From: Limimaricola variabilis | Lineage (GTDB): Bacteria; Pseudomonadota; Alphaproteobacteria; Rhodobacterales; Rhodobacteraceae | NCBI RefSeq assembly: GCF_014195545.1 | Contig: NZ_JACIBX010000007.1 | Coordinates: forward strand, 124,001-188,000 | Reading direction: 5' to 3' | Length of the DNA stretch: 64,000 bases | Shown here: positions 33,627 to 59,724 of the stretch, piece by piece | Layout: every line of letters starts with the position of its first letter | How positions within the stretch are numbered: position 1 is the first letter of the stretch | The notes under the pieces: model-generated | Told to the model about the DNA's origin: nothing | Database searches by the model: none | The model's input: the letters and a program-made list of their open reading frames with translations, nothing else | Translations under genes and position numbers: made by a program

Positions 33627-34187
33627 ATGAACGACATGCTGGATAGGCAGGCGGAGGATCGCATAGAACTCGCGGGCCACGTCAAATGGTTCGATCCGGC
33701 CAAGGGCTTTGGTTTCATCGTACCCGATGATGGCGGATCCGACATCCTCCTGCATGCCAATGTTCTGCGCAATTTCGGCCAGAACTCGGTCGCCGACGGC
33801 GCTCGTATCCGGATCCTCGCGCAGCGGACCGATCGCGGCATCCAGGCGGCGGTGGTGCTGTCGCTCGAGCCGCCGGCGGACGCCCCCGCGGTGCCGCTGG
33901 CCGACTTTGCCGAGTTCGATCCCGAGTATCTCGCCAGCCGCCCGCTGGAGCCCGCGCGGATCAAATGGTTCGACAAGGCTAAGGGGTTCGGCTTCGCCAA
34001 CATCTTTGGCACCGATGACGACATCTTCCTGCATGTCGAAGTGCTGCGCAGCTCCGGCCTGGCCGAATTGCAGCCCGGCGAGGCGGTGGCCTTACGGGTG
34101 ATTCAGGGCAAGCGGGGCCGCATGGCGACAGAAATCCTGCCCTGGGATGCCGTGCTGCGCCGCGCACCGCAGGAGGATGCGCAGTGA
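33627..34187 (+). CDS. Double cold-shock-domain protein
   Basis: 186-residue nucleic-acid-binding protein with two cold-shock domains. CSD1 (about residues 12-78) begins GHVKWFDPAKGFGFIVPDD with RNP1 KGFGFI, and CSD2 (about 110-175) begins RIKWFDKAKGFGFANIFG with KGFGFA. RNP2-like ILLHANVL and IFLHVEVL follow each. A Pro/Ala linker joins the domains. The layout is typical of alphaproteobacterial tandem CSD proteins rather than the 70-residue CspA type. GGAGGCGGAG precedes ATG 33627. The stop overlaps the next start (GTGA), coupling it to the DUF192 gene. Confidence 0.92.
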   Translation: MNDMLDRQAEDRIELAGHVKWFDPAKGFGFIVPDDGGSDILLHANVLRNFGQNSVADGARIRILAQRTDRGIQAAVVLSLEPPADAPAVPLADFAEFDPEYLASRPLEPARIKWFDKAKGFGFANIFGTDDDIFLHVEVLRSSGLAELQPGEAVALRVIQGKRGRMATEILPWDAVLRRAPQEDAQ

Positions 34188-34663
34188 GGCTTGCCGCGCT
34201 GGCGCTCGGGATCGCCCTCGCGCCCGGCATGGTCGCGGCCGGCAGCGCCGCCTGCGCGCCGGATCGGCTGACGGTGCGCGGCGACTGGGGGCAAGCCAGC
34301 TTCAAGGTCGCGGTGGCCGACGAGGCGGCCGAGCGGGCGCAGGGGTTGATGAACGTGCCCGAGATGCCGCGCATGGCGGGCATGCTCTTTGTCTATGAAA
34401 CGCCGCAGCCGGTATCGTTCTGGATGCGAAACACGCTGATTCCGCTCGACATGATCTTTGCTGAGGCGGATGGCACGATTGCCAGCATCCATGCCCGCGC
34501 CACGCCGCTCGACGAGACGCCGATCCCGGGCGGCGACGACATCCAGTACGTGCTGGAGATCAATGGCGGCATGGCGGCACGGCTCGGCATCGCGCCGGGC
34601 GACACGCTGCGCCATCCGGATATCGGCAGCGAAGAGGTTCCGGCGGCAGATCCCTGCGATTGA
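34184..34663 (+). CDS. DUF192 family secreted protein
   Basis: 159 residues from a GTG that overlaps the cold-shock gene stop. Signal peptide ([20 protein letters not shown]), then the DUF192 core: [50 protein letters not shown] (split about residues 66-95) and ALEINGG-like [18 protein letters not shown]. Family members are small periplasmic beta-proteins of unknown biochemical function. A cysteine follows the signal region but without a clear lipobox. Confidence 0.87.
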
Positions 34664-34714
34664 GCCAGCCGGCGCTTGCGCCCGCGGCCGGCGCGGCCTA
34701 GAAGGGCGTCGGTC

Positions 34715-34791
34715 CGGGGCGTAGCGCAGCCTGGTAGCGCATCTGTTTTGGGAACAGAGGGTCGCAGGTTCGAATCCTGCCGCCCCGACCA
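34715..34791 (+). tRNA. tRNA-Pro (UGG)
   Basis: 77-nt cloverleaf including an encoded CCA. Acceptor stem CGGGGCG/CGCCCCG, D-arm with AGCGCAGCCTGGTAGCGC, anticodon arm TCTGT-TTTGGGA-ACAGA with anticodon TGG, and T-arm GCAGG-TTCGAAT-CCTGC. It ends ...ACCA at 34791. All invariant positions are present. Confidence 0.97.
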
Positions 34792-35284
34792 ATCTTCCAA
34801 CATCGACATTCCTGCTGCTGCCGCAGCCTGTGGCGCGCGGCTGCAGGCCGAATCCCGCCTTGGGTCGCGGGCAACGCCGCCATGCCTGCCCCGGGGGCAT
34901 GCCCTACACCTTGCCCGGATACCCCGAAATCGCCCCTGTGGCCGTGTTGCCACGCCCCCTCGTGGACAAGTTCCGGGGCGGTTTGTCACCCCCTGTGGAT
35001 GATTTTCGCCGGGCGTGGAAAAGACCCGTTTCCGGCGCCCGAGCACCTGCCCATCACCCAGCGTCGCATGGGCATCGCGCATCTGCCGCCATGGTCGAGC
35101 GCCTGTGGAAAACCCTGTGGGAGATCCGTGAACTGCGGTGGGCGAATCCGGCGCTGAAAATCATCGCTCCGTAATTCGCCGAGCGGGCTCCGACCGCGCG
35201 TTGACCCCATCCGCCATGCTGCACAGGTTCGTCCGACCGCGGCGCCTCAGCCCGTCGCATCACCGAGCGAGACGAGACCGAGAC
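34792..35284. other. Long non-coding stretch after tRNA-Pro with repeated GTGGANAA motifs
   Basis: About 490 bases without a convincing gene. GTGGA-containing motifs similar to the DnaA-box complement (TGTGGATAA) recur: CGTGGACAA at 34961, TGTGGATGA at 34994, CGTGGAAAA at 35014, TGTGGAAAA at 35104, and a further CTGTGGGAG just after. All are on the plus strand upstream of the NrdJ-like gene. TTGACC at 35201 could be a -35 box. No riboswitch was recognised. Confidence 0.5.
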
Positions 35285-37084
35285 ATGCGATTCGAGCGCC
35301 ACCAGACCCAGCCCGGACCGGATCATGCGATCGGTCCCGACGCGCGGGGCGTGGGGGTGGGGTTTGCCGGCTGGCCCGAACGCGCGGCGCGCGCCTTCGG
35401 GCAGCAGGTGCCGGGTGGTGCAGATCCGGTCGCGGCGACCGAGGCGCTGACCACGCGGCTCGAGGCGCGGGCACGGGTGCAGGGGATCGCGGCCGCCGAA
35501 GAATGGGCTGCGGACATCCGGGGCATGATCCTGTCGCGGCAGGTCGCGGTCGACTCGGCACTCTGGACCGGACGCCGGACCCCCGAGGCGGCGCTGCCAC
35601 TGCCCGTGGACCTCAAGGGGGCTGAGCCAGTCCCTATGCCGCTCGTCCAGGCGGTGGTCGCAGGTGCGCCGCTGGCTCTGGAGTTCGGCGCGCCGGATGC
35701 CAGCGGTCCCTGCGTCGCGCTCGATCTGCGCTGCTTCGTAGAAGGGGGCGCGGTGTCGGTCGACGCGCTGGAGCGGGCAGTGCGGACCTGGACACTGGCG
35801 CTTATCGTCGCGGCAGGGCCGGGGCGCCGGCCGGGGGCGATGATCCTGGCCGGGCTGGGGGGCGCGCTGATGCGGCTCGGGCTCGGCTACGCGACGCCCG
35901 AGGGCCGCGCGGCGGCGATGGCGATGGCGGCGCTGGCCGAGGCCGCGCGGTGGGCCGCGGCGGCTGAGCTGGGTCTCGATGCCGGGGCCGCGCCAATCAT
36001 CCGGCAAGTACCAGATCGCGTCCCGGCTGGCGCTCAGCCGGCCCTGCTGCGGGCGCGTGCGCTCGCGGCGGTGCGGAAGGATGCGCCCGAGGCGACCGGC
36101 AAGGCGCCAATGCTGATGGTCGCGCCGCTGGGGTCGTTGGCCGCGATTCTCGGGCTGGGGGACGATCCGCTCGCGCCGGTCTCATCGCTGCGGCTCGACG
36201 CCGAGCGGCCGGAGGGCCATATCGGCTGTCCCGTGCCCGAACTCGAGGCGGGCCTCGCGGCGCAGGGCCACGACCCCGACCGGATCGCCGCGGCGATCCG
36301 TCACGCCACCGGGCACGGGACCCTCGCGGCGGCGCCGGGCATCGATCATGCGGCGCTGCGCGCCTGCGGTATCGACGGCGACCGGATTGCCCGGATCGAG
36401 GCGGCGCTGGCCGAGGCGCGCGACCTGCGCGCGGTCGTCACCCCCTGGCGTCTCGGACCGGATTTCTGCCGCGACCAGCTCGGCATCGATCCCGAGACGC
36501 TGTCGGATCACGGGATGGGCCTTCTGGAGCGGCTCGGCTTCGACGCCGCGCGGATCGACGCGGCGAACCGGCACGTCTTTGGAGCGGGGACACTGCGCGG
36601 CGCGCCGGGGCTTTCCCCGGAAGCGGCGGCGCATTTCGACTGCGCCGAGACCGTCGGCCCGCGCCCCCGGTTGGCCATGGCGGCGGCGCTGGCATCGGTG
36701 CTGTCCGGGCCGGTACGGGCGCCGCTGGCCTTCGACGGGACGGAAACCGAGGCGAGGGTGCATAGCGCCATCCGCGCCGCGCGCCGCGCCGGGATCGCCG
36801 CGCTGCTGCCCCAGCGCCTCGACGCGCGGAGCGAGATCGCCACGCGGCTGCGCGAGATCCTCGCCATGCTGCCCGAGGGCATCCGCCCCGGCACGGCGCC
36901 GAGCGAGGTGCTCGAACTGCTCGACGCGGCAGGGCGGTCGCGCCCCGATGCCCGCCGCCATGCCCGCGATCTGCGGGCCCGGCTGCTGGCCGAACCTTGG
37001 TCCGGGCAGGACGCCGCAGCACCATCGCGCACGGGAGTGCGCGGGATGGAACGGCTTCGCCCTGGAGGTGTTGCAGACCCGTAG
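35285..37084 (+). CDS. NrdJ-derived protein, apparently catalytically dead class II ribonucleotide reductase homologue
   Basis: 599-residue protein whose order of motifs follows adenosylcobalamin-dependent RNR NrdJ (about 1200 residues) but is shortened and degenerate. The N-terminus MRFERHQTQPGPDHA echoes the NrdJ start. Residues 145-230 (LRCFVEGGAVSVDALERAVR, MRLGLGYATPEGRA, AAAAELG) correspond to the NrdJ barrel. Residues 276-290 replace the APTGTIG loop by APLGSLA. Residues 334-455 (HATGHGTLAAAPGIDHAALR, DFCRDQLGIDPETL, AANRHVFGAGTLRGAPGL, FDCAE) match the NrdJ C-domain well. The GSNPCSE finger loop, most of the barrel, the TSCPD region and the C-terminal Cys pair are missing. A pseudoenzyme or regulatory role is inferred. 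Confidence 0.75.
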   Translation: MRFERHQTQPGPDHAIGPDARGVGVGFAGWPERAARAFGQQVPGGADPVAATEALTTRLEARARVQGIAAAEEWAADIRGMILSRQVAVDSALWTGRRTPEAALPLPVDLKGAEPVPMPLVQAVVAGAPLALEFGAPDASGPCVALDLRCFVEGGAVSVDALERAVRTWTLALIVAAGPGRRPGAMILAGLGGALMRLGLGYATPEGRAAAMAMAALAEAARWAAAAELGLDAGAAPIIRQVPDRVPAGAQPALLRARALAAVRKDAPEATGKAPMLMVAPLGSLAAILGLGDDPLAPVSSLRLDAERPEGHIGCPVPELEAGLAAQGHDPDRIAAAIRHATGHGTLAAAPGIDHAALRACGIDGDRIARIEAALAEARDLRAVVTPWRLGPDFCRDQLGIDPETLSDHGMGLLERLGFDAARIDAANRHVFGAGTLRGAPGLSPEAAAHFDCAETVGPRPRLAMAAALASVLSGPVRAPLAFDGTETEARVHSAIRAARRAGIAALLPQRLDARSEIATRLREILAMLPEGIRPGTAPSEVLELLDAAGRSRPDARRHARDLRARLLAEPWSGQDAAAPSRTGVRGMERLRPGGVADP

Positions 37085-37105
37085 AGTCGCGACGGGAGCA
37101 GCTAT

Positions 37106-37702
37106 ATGGGCGCGCAGTCACACGCCGTCGAGGATATTCTCGACCGACTGGAGCAGGAGGGCCGGGACGATGACCGCGCCACGGTCGGCGACGTGACCGG
37201 GGCGCTGGGCGATCGCGGCTTCGGGCCGTTCCTCTTCGTCCCGGCGCTGATCGAGATCTCGCCCATTGGCGGCGTTCCCGGTGTGCCCACGCTGCTGGCG
37301 CTGATCATCGCGCTCTTCGCCGTGCAGATCGTCATGGGCCGGGACGAGATGTGGTTGCCCGGTTTCCTCGAAAGGCGATCGGTCTCTGGCGACAAGCTCG
37401 CCAAGTCGGCCGACAAGCTGCGCGGGGTGGGCCGCTGGCTCGACCGCTGGTTCCATGGCCGGCTTGAGGCACTGACCACCGACAAGGTCGCCCGGATCGC
37501 CGGGATCGCGGTGCTGTTGCTCTGCCTGACGGTGCCGCCGCTGGAACTCGTCCCCTTCGCCTCGACCGCGCCGATGGCGGCCATCGCGGCCTTCGGCCTC
37601 GCGATGACGCTGCGCGACGGGCTGCTGATGGCGCTTGGCTTCGTGCTGAGCCTCGTCGCGGTCGGCGTGGGATTTGGCATGATCGGCGGGGACGGCGGCT
37701 GA
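37106..37702 (+). CDS. ExoD-family membrane protein
   Basis: 198-residue protein of the ExoD family, known from rhizobial exopolysaccharide synthesis and alkali tolerance studies; biochemical function unknown. A cytosolic N-terminal helix (HAVEDILDRLEQEGRDDDRATVGDV) is followed by the conserved GPFLFVPALIEISPIGGVPGVPTLLALIIALF membrane segment (about residues 40-72). Paired C-terminal hydrophobic segments lie at residues 128-195. It begins 21 bases after the NrdJ-like stop, and nadE follows after about 70 bases. Confidence 0.88.
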   Translation: MGAQSHAVEDILDRLEQEGRDDDRATVGDVTGALGDRGFGPFLFVPALIEISPIGGVPGVPTLLALIIALFAVQIVMGRDEMWLPGFLERRSVSGDKLAKSADKLRGVGRWLDRWFHGRLEALTTDKVARIAGIAVLLLCLTVPPLELVPFASTAPMAAIAAFGLAMTLRDGLLMALGFVLSLVAVGVGFGMIGGDGG

Positions 37703-37771
37703 ATCCTCGGGCTGGCGCATCCGGCCCGGGGGCGGCATTGTCACCCCGCCCGCAACGCAGGAGATTTCGAC

Positions 37772-39835
37772 GTGACGCGCAACCGCAAGGGCCCCGGCGC
37801 CTTCCATTCCCTGCACCGCCACGGTTTCGTACGGGTCGCCACCGCAACGCCGCGGGTGCGGCCCGCCGATGTCGCCTTCAACCGCGACGCGGTGATCGCC
37901 GAAGCGCGGCGCGCGCATGACGCTCGCGCCGATCTGGTGGTGTTTCCCGAGCTGTGCATCTCCTCCTACGCGATCGACGACTTGCACATGCAGACCGCGC
38001 TGAACGACGCGGTGGAGACAGCGCTGGAGGCCGTGGTCGAGGCGAGCGCGAAACTCTCGCCGGTGCTGTTGGTGGGCGCGCCGCTGCGGCACGAGGGGCG
38101 GCTCTACAATTGCGCGGCGGTGATTTCGCGCGGGCGCCTGCTCGGCGTGGTGCCAAAGAGCTTCCTGCCAAACTACCGCGAATTCTATGAAAAGCGCTGG
38201 TTCGCCGAGGGGCGCGGCGTCACCGGGCGGACGATGCGGCTCGGCGAGAAAGAGGTGCCCTTCGGCACCGACCTGATCTTCGAGGCCGAGGATCTGCCGG
38301 GGCTGATCTTCCACACCGAGATCTGCGAGGATTTCTGGGCCCCGGTGCCGCCCTCGAGCCAAGCGGCGACCGAGGGCGCGCTGATCCTCACCAACCTATC
38401 GGCCTCGAACATCGTGATCGGCAAATCCGACGACCGCCACGTGCTGTGCCGCAGCCACGGCATGCGCAGCTTCGCGGCCTATGCCTACTCGGCGGCGGGA
38501 CCGGGCGAGAGCACCACCGATCTGAGCTGGGACGGGCAGGGCGCGGTCTACGAGATGGGCGATCTTCTCGCGCAATCAGGCCGCTTCGACGTCGAGCCCG
38601 AGCTGTGCATGGCCGATGTCGACACGCAGCGCCTGCTCAACGAGCGGATGCGCACCGGCACCTTCGACGATGCCGGCAAGGGCCAGGCGCCGGTCTTCCG
38701 CCGCATCCGGTTCGACCATCAGCCGCATTTCGAGGATGCCGGGCTCTTGCGTCCGATCCGTCGCTATCCCTACGTGCCCAATCGCGAGAGCCATCTCGAT
38801 CTCGACTGCTACGAGGCCTTCAACATCCAGGTCGAGGGGCTGCGCCGCCGGATGGAATCGATCGGCAACCCGAAGCTGGTCATCGGCATCTCGGGCGGGC
38901 TCGACAGCACCCACGCGCTGATCGTGGCGGCCAAGGCCTGCGACCGGATGGGCCTGTCGCGCGAGACGATCCTCGGCTACACCATGCCCGGCTTCGCCAC
39001 CGGCGACGCCACCAAGTCCAACGCGTGGAAGCTGATGCGCGCGATGGGCATCGAGGCGGCCGAGATCGACATCCGGCCCGCCGCACGGCAGATGCTCAAG
39101 GACATGGATCACCCGTTTTCGGGGGGCGATCCGGTCTATGACATCACCTTCGAGAACGTGCAGGCGGGCCTGCGCACCGACTACCTGTTCCGGCTCGCGA
39201 ACCAGAATGGCGGCATCGTCGTGGGGACGGGGGATCTGAGCGAGCTGGCGCTGGGCTGGTGCACCTATGGCGTCGGCGACCAGATGAGCCATTACAACGT
39301 CAATTCCGGCGTGCCCAAGACGCTGATCCAGTACCTGATCCGCTGGTCGATCCAGTCCGGGCAGTTCGACGACGCGGCCACCACCGACGTGCTGCAGGCG
39401 ATCCTCGATACCGAGATCTCACCCGAGCTGGTGCCGCAATCCGAGGAGGAGGAGCTGCAATCGACCGAGGACCGGATCGGGCCCTACGCGTTGCACGACT
39501 TCTTCCTGTTCCACACCATGCGTTACGGGCTGCCGCCCTCCAAGGTGGCCTTCCTCGCCTGGCACGCCTGGCACGACGCCGAAAAGGGGCTCTGGCCGAT
39601 CGGTTTCCCGGAGGAAAAGCGCCGCGCCTACGATCTCGCGGAGATCCGCAAATGGCTGGAGGTCTTCGTCTCCCGCTTCTTCGGCTTCGCGCAGTTCAAG
39701 CGCTCGGCCATGCCCAACGGGCCCAAGGTCTCGGCCGGAGGCTCGCTCAGCCCGCGTGGTGACTGGCGCGCGCCGTCGGATGCCAGCGCCGCGGTTTGGC
39801 TGGAGGAGCTTCGCGAAAACGTGCCCGAAGGCTGA
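37772..39835 (+). CDS. nadE: Glutamine-dependent NAD+ synthetase
   Basis: Final step of NAD synthesis, amidating NaAD with glutamine-derived ammonia. 687 residues, two-domain form. The N-terminal nitrilase-type glutaminase has Glu in [12 protein letters not shown], Lys in [18 protein letters not shown] and Cys in [10 protein letters not shown]. The C-terminal synthetase has the P-loop [17 protein letters not shown] (about residues 370-386) and [16 protein letters not shown]. The GTG start is backed by AGGAG 8 bases upstream. Confidence 0.95.
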
Positions 39836-39888
39836 TCTTTCCCGTCCCGCCCGGATGCGTTAGACGGGGCCGCCCGGAATGGTCCGGA

Positions 39889-39920
39889 CACCGGTCGCAG
39901 CCTACCCGGTCAAAACAAGG
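39889..39920 (+). promoter_or_regulatory. preQ1-I riboswitch controlling queCDE
   Basis: A compact aptamer directly in front of queC: stem ACCGG (39890-39894) with CCGGT (39906-39910), loop TCGCAGCCTAC, then the A-rich tail CAAAACAAGG (39911-39920). The loop GGTCGCAG and tail AAAACAAGG match the well-known thermophile (Tte) preQ1 aptamer almost exactly. The tail contains the AAGGA ribosome site of queC (ATG 39930). Ligand-induced pseudoknotting would therefore hide the ribosome site, giving translational repression by preQ1. Confidence 0.85.
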
Positions 39921-39929
39921 ACGGATAAG

Positions 39930-40628
39930 ATGAAAACCTATGTGATCTGCTCGGGCGGGCTCGACTCCGTGTCGCTCGCCCACAAGGTCGCCGCCGAGCA
40001 CGAGCTCGCGGGACTGATTTCCTTCGATTACGGCCAGCGCCATTCCAAGGAGCTGGACTTCGCGCGGGCCGCGGCCGACCGTCTCGGCGTGCCGTTCCAC
40101 CTGATCGACATGCGCTCGATCGGCGCGCATCTGTCGGGCTCGGCGCTGACCGACGATGTCGAGGTTCCCGACGGGCATTATGCCGAGGACACCATGAAGA
40201 CGACCGTCGTGCCGAACCGCAACGCCATCATGCTCGCCGTGGCCTTTGGCCTGGCGGCGGCGCAGAAGGCCGACGCGGTGGCCACCGCCGTGCATGGCGG
40301 CGACCACTTCATCTACCCCGATTGCCGCCCGGCCTTCATCAAAGCTTTCGATGCGATGCAGAAACAGGCGCTCGACGGCTATGCCGATGTGCGCCTCTAC
40401 ACCCCCTTCGTGCACGCGCCGAAATCCGCGATCGTCACCGAGGGCGCGAAGCATGGCACGCCCTTTGCCGAGACGTGGTCCTGCTACAAGGGCGGCGACC
40501 TGCATTGCGGCCGCTGCGGCACCTGCGTCGAACGCCGCGAGGCGTTCCACCTCGCCGGGGTCGAGGACCCGACCGAATATGCCGATCCGGATTTCTGGGT
40601 CGAGGCCGTCGAGCGGGGGGCGAAGTGA
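39930..40628 (+). CDS. queC: 7-cyano-7-deazaguanine synthase QueC
   Basis: ATP-dependent conversion of carboxy-deazaguanine to preQ0 in queuosine biosynthesis. 232 residues. The PP-loop is VICSGGLDSVSLAHKV (residues 5-20), followed by SFDYGQRHSKEL and VPNRNAIMLAVAFG. The C-terminal zinc site is WSCYKGGDLHCGRCGTCVERREAF. ATG 39930 follows AAGGA, which is part of the upstream riboswitch tail. The stop overlaps the queD start by one base (TGATG), beginning a queC-queD-queE operon. Confidence 0.96.
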   Translation: MKTYVICSGGLDSVSLAHKVAAEHELAGLISFDYGQRHSKELDFARAAADRLGVPFHLIDMRSIGAHLSGSALTDDVEVPDGHYAEDTMKTTVVPNRNAIMLAVAFGLAAAQKADAVATAVHGGDHFIYPDCRPAFIKAFDAMQKQALDGYADVRLYTPFVHAPKSAIVTEGAKHGTPFAETWSCYKGGDLHCGRCGTCVERREAFHLAGVEDPTEYADPDFWVEAVERGAK

Positions 40629-59264: not shown

Positions 59265-59584
59265 GGAAGTGCAGGCTTCTGTTGCCAGGTGCCTGCGAAC
59301 CCCGCCTTACGCGGCTAGGCGCAAGGGCTTAAGTTTCGGCGGACCGAGACTGCTTAAGCAGCCACAGCCATTGCCGGAGCACGGTTGTCGTTGGCAACTG
59401 TACATATCGGACCGATAACGGTGGTACCTCACCGGGACAAAGCCATCCTCTTTACACGTTCGTCGATCCTATTTCGGCCCCATCTGCCCCCAACGAGGGA
59501 TGATTGGTGGAGCCGCCGGGTACCGCCCCCGGGTCCGATCCGCTTATTACAGGCGCGTTTATGTCCATAGTTCCACGAGGGAAC
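59265..59584 (-). ncRNA. ssrA: Permuted two-piece tmRNA
   Basis: Trans-translation RNA that rescues stalled ribosomes and tags nascent proteins. The gene is circularly permuted, as in alphaproteobacteria: the acceptor piece comes first (5' end near 59584, ending ...GGCTCCACCA at 59505), then a short spacer, then the coding piece starting GGGGCAG at 59490 and ending near 59265 with the hairpin GCAGGC...GCCTGC. The tag frame at 59395-59354 encodes ANDNRAPAMAVAA and a TAA stop, which fits an alphaproteobacterial ssrA tag. GGATCGACG after the 5' end and TTTGGTACCCGG-like acceptor bases are further hallmarks. Exact processed ends are estimates. Confidence 0.9.
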
Positions 59585-59590
59585 GGGTCG

Positions 59591-59619
59591 AATATAGGTG
59601 CGGGCGCGGGCGATGAAAA
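59591..59619 (-). promoter_or_regulatory. ssrA promoter
   Basis: On the minus strand TTTTCA (59619-59614), a 17-base spacer and TATATT (59596-59591) form a sigma-70-like promoter. Transcription would start near 59584, at the GTTCCCTCGTGGAAC hairpin that opens the precursor. Confidence 0.6.
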
Positions 59620-59724
59620 GGGGGGCGGGACCGAAAGCCTTGGCTCTCGTCGCGCCGGGTCGCATCGCGTTCCGGCATGCGCATTTCGGTGGCCGCGATC
59701 CGCACGCGCCGGTAGCTTGACCGG

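Follow-up and report, generated by a model that had tools for sequence, protein, structure and literature searches.

The nrdJ-derived frame and its locus

The window analysed here is a stretch of 64,000 nucleotides from the 3.65-Mb genome of Limimaricola variabilis, a member of a marine bacterial genus. Its plus strand carries a DUF192 gene (34184..34663; Pfam), a tRNA-Pro (TGG) gene (34715..34791; ARAGORN and Rfam), a frame coding for 599 aa plus stop (35285..37084), an exoD-like gene that starts 21 bp downstream of this frame (37106..37702; Pfam PF06055), and nadE, coding for an NAD synthetase with an amidase domain (37772..39835; Pfam). The 599-codon frame starts with ATG and lies within a 650-codon stop-free stretch, and two of 2000 sequences drawn from a first-order Markov model with matching composition had as many open codons. 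Its GC content is 75.5% compared with 69.4% for the whole window, and alanine makes up 21% of its residues.

Ribonucleotide reductase (RNR) is an essential and very conserved enzyme that makes the building blocks of DNA. The protein encoded by the frame matched the profile of long NrdJ significantly, although far under the cut-off (NCBIfam PRK07562, E = 3.1e-37, 127.7 bits, cut-off 1737), and remained below the cut-off of Pfam PF02867 (E = 0.11, 11.6 bits, cut-off 23.9); the PDB entries 7b9q and 7b9p of the R. sphaeroides reductase were matched with E-values of 3.8e-37 and 3.9e-37, respectively. Four related frames from the genus scored 109–173 bits with PRK07562, likewise under the cut-off. 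An earlier note on this DNA, made from the letters alone, had described the frame as open to its end and as derived from NrdJ. Both claims hold, and the frame is confirmed as a degenerate derivative of the long B12-dependent nrdJ of the PRK07562 type (hereafter, the relic). The note's mention of related 'TSCPD-like' annotations does not fit it: a Pfam profile search with E up to 10 gave no TSCPD match in the relic protein, and TSCPD sits in the short NrdJ of this genome (see below).

Matches to the relic were obtained in 119 of 147 relatives, including 79 of 82 genomes from elsewhere in the family, where the matching frames were about 1180 aa or longer except in two genomes in which they were cut by contig ends (G048 and G076). 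Among 19 loci from other genera (a twentieth was cut by a contig end), at least 12 have a DUF192 gene before their intact nrdJ, often together with pdxH and a cold-shock gene. Since pdxH, the cold-shock gene and DUF192, the upstream neighbours of the relic, recur at these loci, gene order shows the relic to be the positional orthologue of long nrdJ, that is, the ancestral gene at its original locus.

The relic was found at the same locus in all eight Limimaricola genomes, our own included, and full-length open frames of 599–668 aa were present in five of them (G000, G003, G004, G006 and G007). The G002 copy carries a frameshift near codon 390, which is probably an assembly or sequencing error because the G002 assembly also breaks the short nrdJ. 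In G005 the relic is split over two contigs, and in G001 it is present as two contig-end stubs; these two of the eight assemblies break within the gene. Absence from G001, where no match was obtained at first, was rejected, as both gene ends lie at contig ends and the gap is one of assembly. The TGA in the G004 relic is the stop of that frame itself. This copy lacks most of the first half, about 137 mostly unalignable residues remaining between the halves, and its C-terminal tail has diverged.

The gap between the relic and the exoD-like gene was 21–71 bp in all seven genus genomes examined, the gap between exoD and nadE was 69–74 bp in the five genomes in which nadE was located, and no terminator-like site was found on the plus strand from 34700 to 40200. 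The exoD-like gene is probably cotranscribed with the relic, with nadE in the same operon. A putative promoter (TTGACC, 16 nt, ACAGGT) is situated at 35201..35228 on the plus strand, and a similar layout precedes intact long nrdJ. As a scan with the sigma-70 consensus found no promoter upstream of the relic, we infer this one from comparison: GTTGACC was present at -85 to -89 in six of six relics, and among 18 stretches preceding intact nrdJ, 15 contain GTTGACC or GTTGACG, followed 49–51 nt downstream by the best match to CCACAACATATAGTGG. The CCACAACATATAGTGG box, which resembles what we take to be the NrdR box, occurred with at most four mismatches in 12 of the 18 intact stretches versus none of 300 random 400-bp segments of the window. 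The six relics were without such a box, their best matches having 6–8 mismatches, a level also seen in random segments. Before the live short nrdJ (L033–L039), TTGTGGATAA was observed, close to NrdR-box-like sequences.

Two DnaA-box-like sites were also noted on the plus strand, TGTGGATGA at 34994..35002 and TGTGGAAAA at 35104..35112, with similar sites at -291 to -295 in five of six relics and at -181 to -186 in all six, respectively; the corresponding TGTGGA pattern had seven matches in the 64-kb window and was present in 7 of 18 intact upstream stretches (600 bp). No cobalamin riboswitch was detected upstream of the relic at Rfam gathering thresholds, with which the window yielded tRNA and tmRNA (two models) only. 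The tmRNA, of the permuted alphaproteobacterial type, is located at 59268–59623 on the minus strand.

Parts lost and kept relative to intact NrdJ

The relic was mapped by alignment with intact long NrdJ proteins (25–28% identity), using the residue numbering of L061. Relic residues 1–94 correspond to intact residues 1–148 with five gaps and include the N-terminal helices (residues 27–94, 35363..35566), which align, with gaps, to intact residues of about 31–148. Intact residues 149–442 are without a counterpart except for a few weakly aligned residues, seven in one printed block, and relic residues 95 to 136 align weakly. Residues 107–562 track intact residues 443–970, poorly past 518, and for the remainder nothing clear was found. 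The start of the second half-barrel with its first strands and helices (residues 141–235, 35705..35989) aligns to about 479–586 and showed a protein identity among relics of 0.67 versus 0.53 at third codon positions. It is followed by the helical insertion of long NrdJ (residues 317–400, 36233..36484), one of the two most conserved parts, and by a conserved arginine-rich C-terminal tail (residues 519–572, 36839..37000) with no clear counterpart in intact NrdJ; aligned to the intact linker with MAFFT, the tail was identical at 6 of 24 and 4 of 21 positions.

The GSNPCSE finger loop of intact NrdJ lies opposite GAPLALE in the relic, and the column of the finger-loop cysteine held no cysteine in six of six relic rows; a non-conserved cysteine is found six columns before it in G002, G003 and G004. 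The redox cysteine of HACF (intact residue 189) falls inside the missing block, and the GGHKVYL (TSCPD) and CGECG/CMKCNTCG regions are without a relic counterpart. By contrast with these losses, the N-terminal helices, the second half-barrel and the helical insertion with GHGT..APG.NH survive, and the relic of this genome retains GHGT..APG.DH, FDCA and the AP.G loop, which reads APLG instead of APTG. The earlier note had thus been right about the loss of the GSNPCSE loop, the C-terminal cysteines and TSCPD and about the retained GHGT, AP.G-like loop and FDCA elements, but homology running end to end, as it also claimed, is not clearly seen, since residues 95–136 align weakly and the last 80 residues poorly. 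Judged by the residues lost, the relic should not act as a reductase.

The block deleted from the relic presumably held the first half-barrel with the dimer helices and specificity loop 1, both described in PMC9669993, as well as loop 2. With the usual dimer interface and the specificity site gone, the structural grounds for two proposals of the same note, that the relic dimerises with true NrdJ or senses nucleotides, fall away.

A model built with AlphaFold2 on 27 sequences had a pLDDT of 77.6 and a pTM of 0.77. Ten-residue blocks reached a mean pLDDT of at least 85 in 22 of 26 cases over residues 141–400; block means were 84–95 in the N-terminal helices (31–90) and at least 92 over residues 141–235 except for the last block (77), and the tail was of low confidence (pLDDT below 60 over 511–570). 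A model from nine relic rows alone gave nearly the same order of elements (pLDDT 61.1, pTM 0.57). Foldseek found 7b9p as the best match (E = 1.1e-17, TM 0.50 by query and 0.34 by target), followed by 7b9q and the T. maritima NrdJ, so that the second half-barrel fold was recovered when the fold was modelled as the note had suggested. The relic is therefore predicted, by these models, to keep the N-terminal helices, the second half-barrel and the insertion as a compact fold.

Selection, other reductases and a second genus

To gauge constraint, dN/dS was determined for G006 and G007, the sole close full-length pair (642 codons). The relic had a value of 0.301 (bootstrap 95% 0.206–0.418), with 30, 30 and 75 substitutions at codon positions 1, 2 and 3, respectively, and a value of 0.517 in its last quarter. 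In the same pair, DUF192 showed 0.116, exoD 0.027, nadE 0.047 and the live short NrdJ 0.022; the relic value is 6- to 14-fold higher than in exoD, nadE and the live NrdJ and 2.6-fold higher than in DUF192, and the constraint on the relic is therefore relaxed but real. Relic values of 0.44 and 0.41 were obtained for G005/G002 and 0.138 for G001/G005 over 36 codons. Third positions were the least conserved in 15 of 15 relic pairs, with NG86 values of 0.30 to 0.79, most pairs being saturated. Since every member is without the active site, purifying selection acts after that loss. The relic combines lost catalytic residues with a dN/dS significantly below 1, as a maintained pseudoenzyme does. The dN/dS and frameshift check suggested by the earlier note gave a value below 1 by bootstrap and a lone frameshift (G002) that is probably an assembly error, and its view of a maintained protein is borne out by purifying selection and by full-length open frames in five of eight genomes.

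Regional identities were calculated from the relics other than that of G001, leaving out pairs that involve G004 as well as the close pair. For the insertion (317–400), identity at codon positions 1, 2 and 3 was 0.874, 0.884 and 0.621 and protein identity 0.806; for the tail (519–572) the values were 0.882, 0.886 and 0.591 and 0.796, respectively. The region 236–316 as a whole was moderately conserved, and the last 27 residues showed no constraint. Constraint at the DNA level, such as an exoD promoter inside the tail, is not favoured because third positions of the tail are no more conserved than those of the insertion. A search of the own genome for paralogues of the tail gave nothing convincing, the best other match (E = 0.016) being in a frame that is not obviously related. 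Elsewhere in the protein, the rise in alanine (21–26% in relics versus 10–12% in three intact NrdJ) may be read as a sign of the drift expected under GC pressure. Preservation by selection of a protein that has lost its active site suggests that the relic now has a different, non-enzymatic job.

PF02867 has a single match above the cut-off in this genome, a short NrdJ (TIGR02504, 599.7 bits, cut-off 399.95). This protein is 758 aa long, carries NPCGE and TSCPD, ends in a cysteine-rich stretch and is intact by sequence. It is 95–97% identical in six other genus genomes and 94–96% identical, in two pieces, in G002. Among the 82 family genomes outside the genus, 72 had a strong short-NrdJ match (best E of 8e-225 or lower) and 70 matched both long and short NrdJ; the idea that a short NrdJ acquired by horizontal transfer had displaced the long one was rejected because these 70 genomes match both.

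In a wider survey of 394 evenly drawn family genomes, 219 matched the relic profile at E ≤ 1e-40 and 175 fell below this threshold. Among the matches listed, the sole short frame outside the genus that was not cut by a contig end belonged to G374 (739 aa, L096:4037-6253), and it follows cold-shock and DUF192 genes. Identity of this copy with an intact NrdJ was 49% across 462 residues; the alignment skips from intact residue 159 to 445 and does not extend past intact residue 906, and NPCSE is absent. Its tail is different, and a small CxxC-rich stretch is retained at its end. It scored 602 bits with PRK07562, below the cut-off of 1737, and, unlike the relic of this genome, passed the PF02867 cut-off (121.6 bits). 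The only other PF02867 match over the cut-off in G374 carries NLCSE, the class I motif (NrdA-like), and no short NrdJ was found there in a PF02867 search with E up to 1. An NrdR-like box match with four mismatches stands beside TTGACC, a different gene follows the copy, and nadE is on another contig. G374, the one genome of its genus in the set, holds a less degenerate dead copy in a second genus, at the same locus and with the same parts kept.

A tree of neighbouring genes (20 taxa with both genes, 307 columns; seven of 27 loci were dropped, having no pattern match) placed G374 near Limimaricola, with a support of 0.969 for a group that includes L065, the G039 locus with a long nrdJ frame of 1335 codons, and of 0.274 for the inner node. 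The NrdJ tree (24 taxa, without L059, which is cut by a contig end, and L065, whose start was not recognised) joined the relics with a support of 0.999, a grouping that is weak because of long branches. G004 was the first Limimaricola branch in this tree analysis. The 687-aa NadE (37772–39835) was matched at E ≤ 1e-100 in five of 28 genomes tested, namely in the four Limimaricola genomes among them and in G374, and in none of the 23 other family genomes. This long NadE may represent a replaced or laterally acquired NAD synthetase, and its sharing hints at a kinship of G374 and Limimaricola.

Interpretation and comparison with known systems

The best explanation of these findings, which we hold with middling confidence, is that the ancestral long nrdJ is now a pseudoenzyme held by selection, whose surviving module binds a putative partner as an adaptor or regulator. 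The ancestral gene would have lost catalysis together with the first half-barrel and the cysteines for catalysis and re-reduction, and the cell probably tolerated this because another reductase supplies dNTPs, the short NrdJ in Limimaricola and a class I-like NrdA in G374. The surviving module would work by binding, with the helical insertion and the arginine-rich tail as candidate contact surfaces for the putative partner. As TTGACC was kept and the NrdR-like box lost, the relic is probably expressed outside NrdR control, together with exoD and nadE. The relaxed constraint, the NG86 ratios of up to 0.79 in saturated pairs, the high alanine content, the low confidence of the tail, its divergence in G004 and the different tail of G374 count against this explanation, as do the cysteine near the finger-loop column in G002, G003 and G004, the negative sigma-70 scan and the dependence on a single close full-length pair.

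The closest competing explanation is that the relic serves as a translated leader of exoD and nadE: the old nrdJ promoter would drive both genes and the open frame would avoid Rho-dependent polarity, the protein being merely harmless. The short gaps to exoD and nadE and the plus strand free of terminator-like sites agree with a leader, but its open frame would need no amino-acid conservation, and yet dN/dS was 0.30 and two segments kept about 80% protein identity against about 60% at third positions; moreover, another gene follows in G374, with nadE on another contig. We regard such a leader as unlikely. It likewise seems improbable that the relic is a residual ligand sensor whose second half-barrel, though no longer catalytic, still binds and reports a nucleotide phosphate or cobalamin. 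The first half-barrel is gone, the region 236–316 is moderately conserved, and the AP.G loop (residues 280–283), although kept in outline, has changed from APTGTIG to APLG in relics other than G004 (AAIG) and G005 (SPLG), its threonines being lost or varied.

A slowly decaying pseudogene, open by chance in GC-rich DNA, would fit a dN/dS of 0.30 against 0.022 in live NrdJ, the frameshift in G002, the unconstrained last 27 residues and the alanine content. However, dN/dS is below 1 by bootstrap even though the active site was already lost in all members, 599 open codons arose in two of 2000 Markov sequences, full-length open frames are present in five of eight genomes, and the frameshift is itself probably an assembly error, and we consider decay very unlikely. 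Little credence is also given to the idea that the relic is a structural remnant which forms higher-order assemblies with the live short NrdJ, perhaps by receiving the C-terminal zinc-finger tail of that protein: the short NrdJ does have TSCPD and a cysteine-rich end, and class II tails are thought to mediate oligomerisation according to section 2.4 of PMC9669993, but the canonical dimer helices are lost and the PF02867 search (E up to 1) found no short NrdJ in G374.

Returning to a selection-held pseudoenzyme that binds a partner, a fuller scenario is possible but doubtful, in which an RNR was exapted in place. The second half-barrel, the insertion and a lineage-specific conserved tail would form a stand-alone binding protein that is off NrdR control and heads a NAD synthetase operon, perhaps linking replication to NAD or dNTP supply. 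If the relic protein is functional, it shows that one half of the reductase barrel is able to exist by itself, and it points to a non-catalytic role of the insertion; if the reduction in G374 was a separate event, a role apart from catalysis was already present in this half of long NrdJ. The intact enzyme of other genera, the copies in G374 and G004 with their partial reduction and the remaining, strongly reduced relics form a natural series for genetic tests.

In the open-licence PMC literature, searched by titles and abstract openings, no bacterial RNR derivative kept without its active site was found, and the sole match on inactive RNRs concerned a viral protein. Like the relic, vIRA of murine cytomegalovirus is a catalytically dead homologue of an RNR large subunit with another job. 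It is viral, of the class I type and has a largely complete large-subunit fold, whereas the relic is bacterial, of class II, reduced to a half-barrel and located at the ancestral chromosomal locus. Among class II systems, the split NrdJa/NrdJb (PMC9669993, section 2.4) has, like the relic, a chain without C-terminal domains, but NrdJa holds the catalytic barrel, and the relic is without half of the barrel and the active site, and no partner chain came to notice for it; the part of this paper on class II diversity considered here describes no half-barrel derivative. The short NrdJ (TIGR02504) of the same genome belongs to the same superfamily as the relic but is intact by sequence. With long NrdJ (PRK07562; 7b9p, 7b9q), the relic has in common the locus, the N-terminal start and helices, the second half-barrel and the insertion, and it differs in having half the length and in being without the first half-barrel, the catalytic and redox cysteines, the IscU-like/TSCPD part and the zinc-finger C-terminus.
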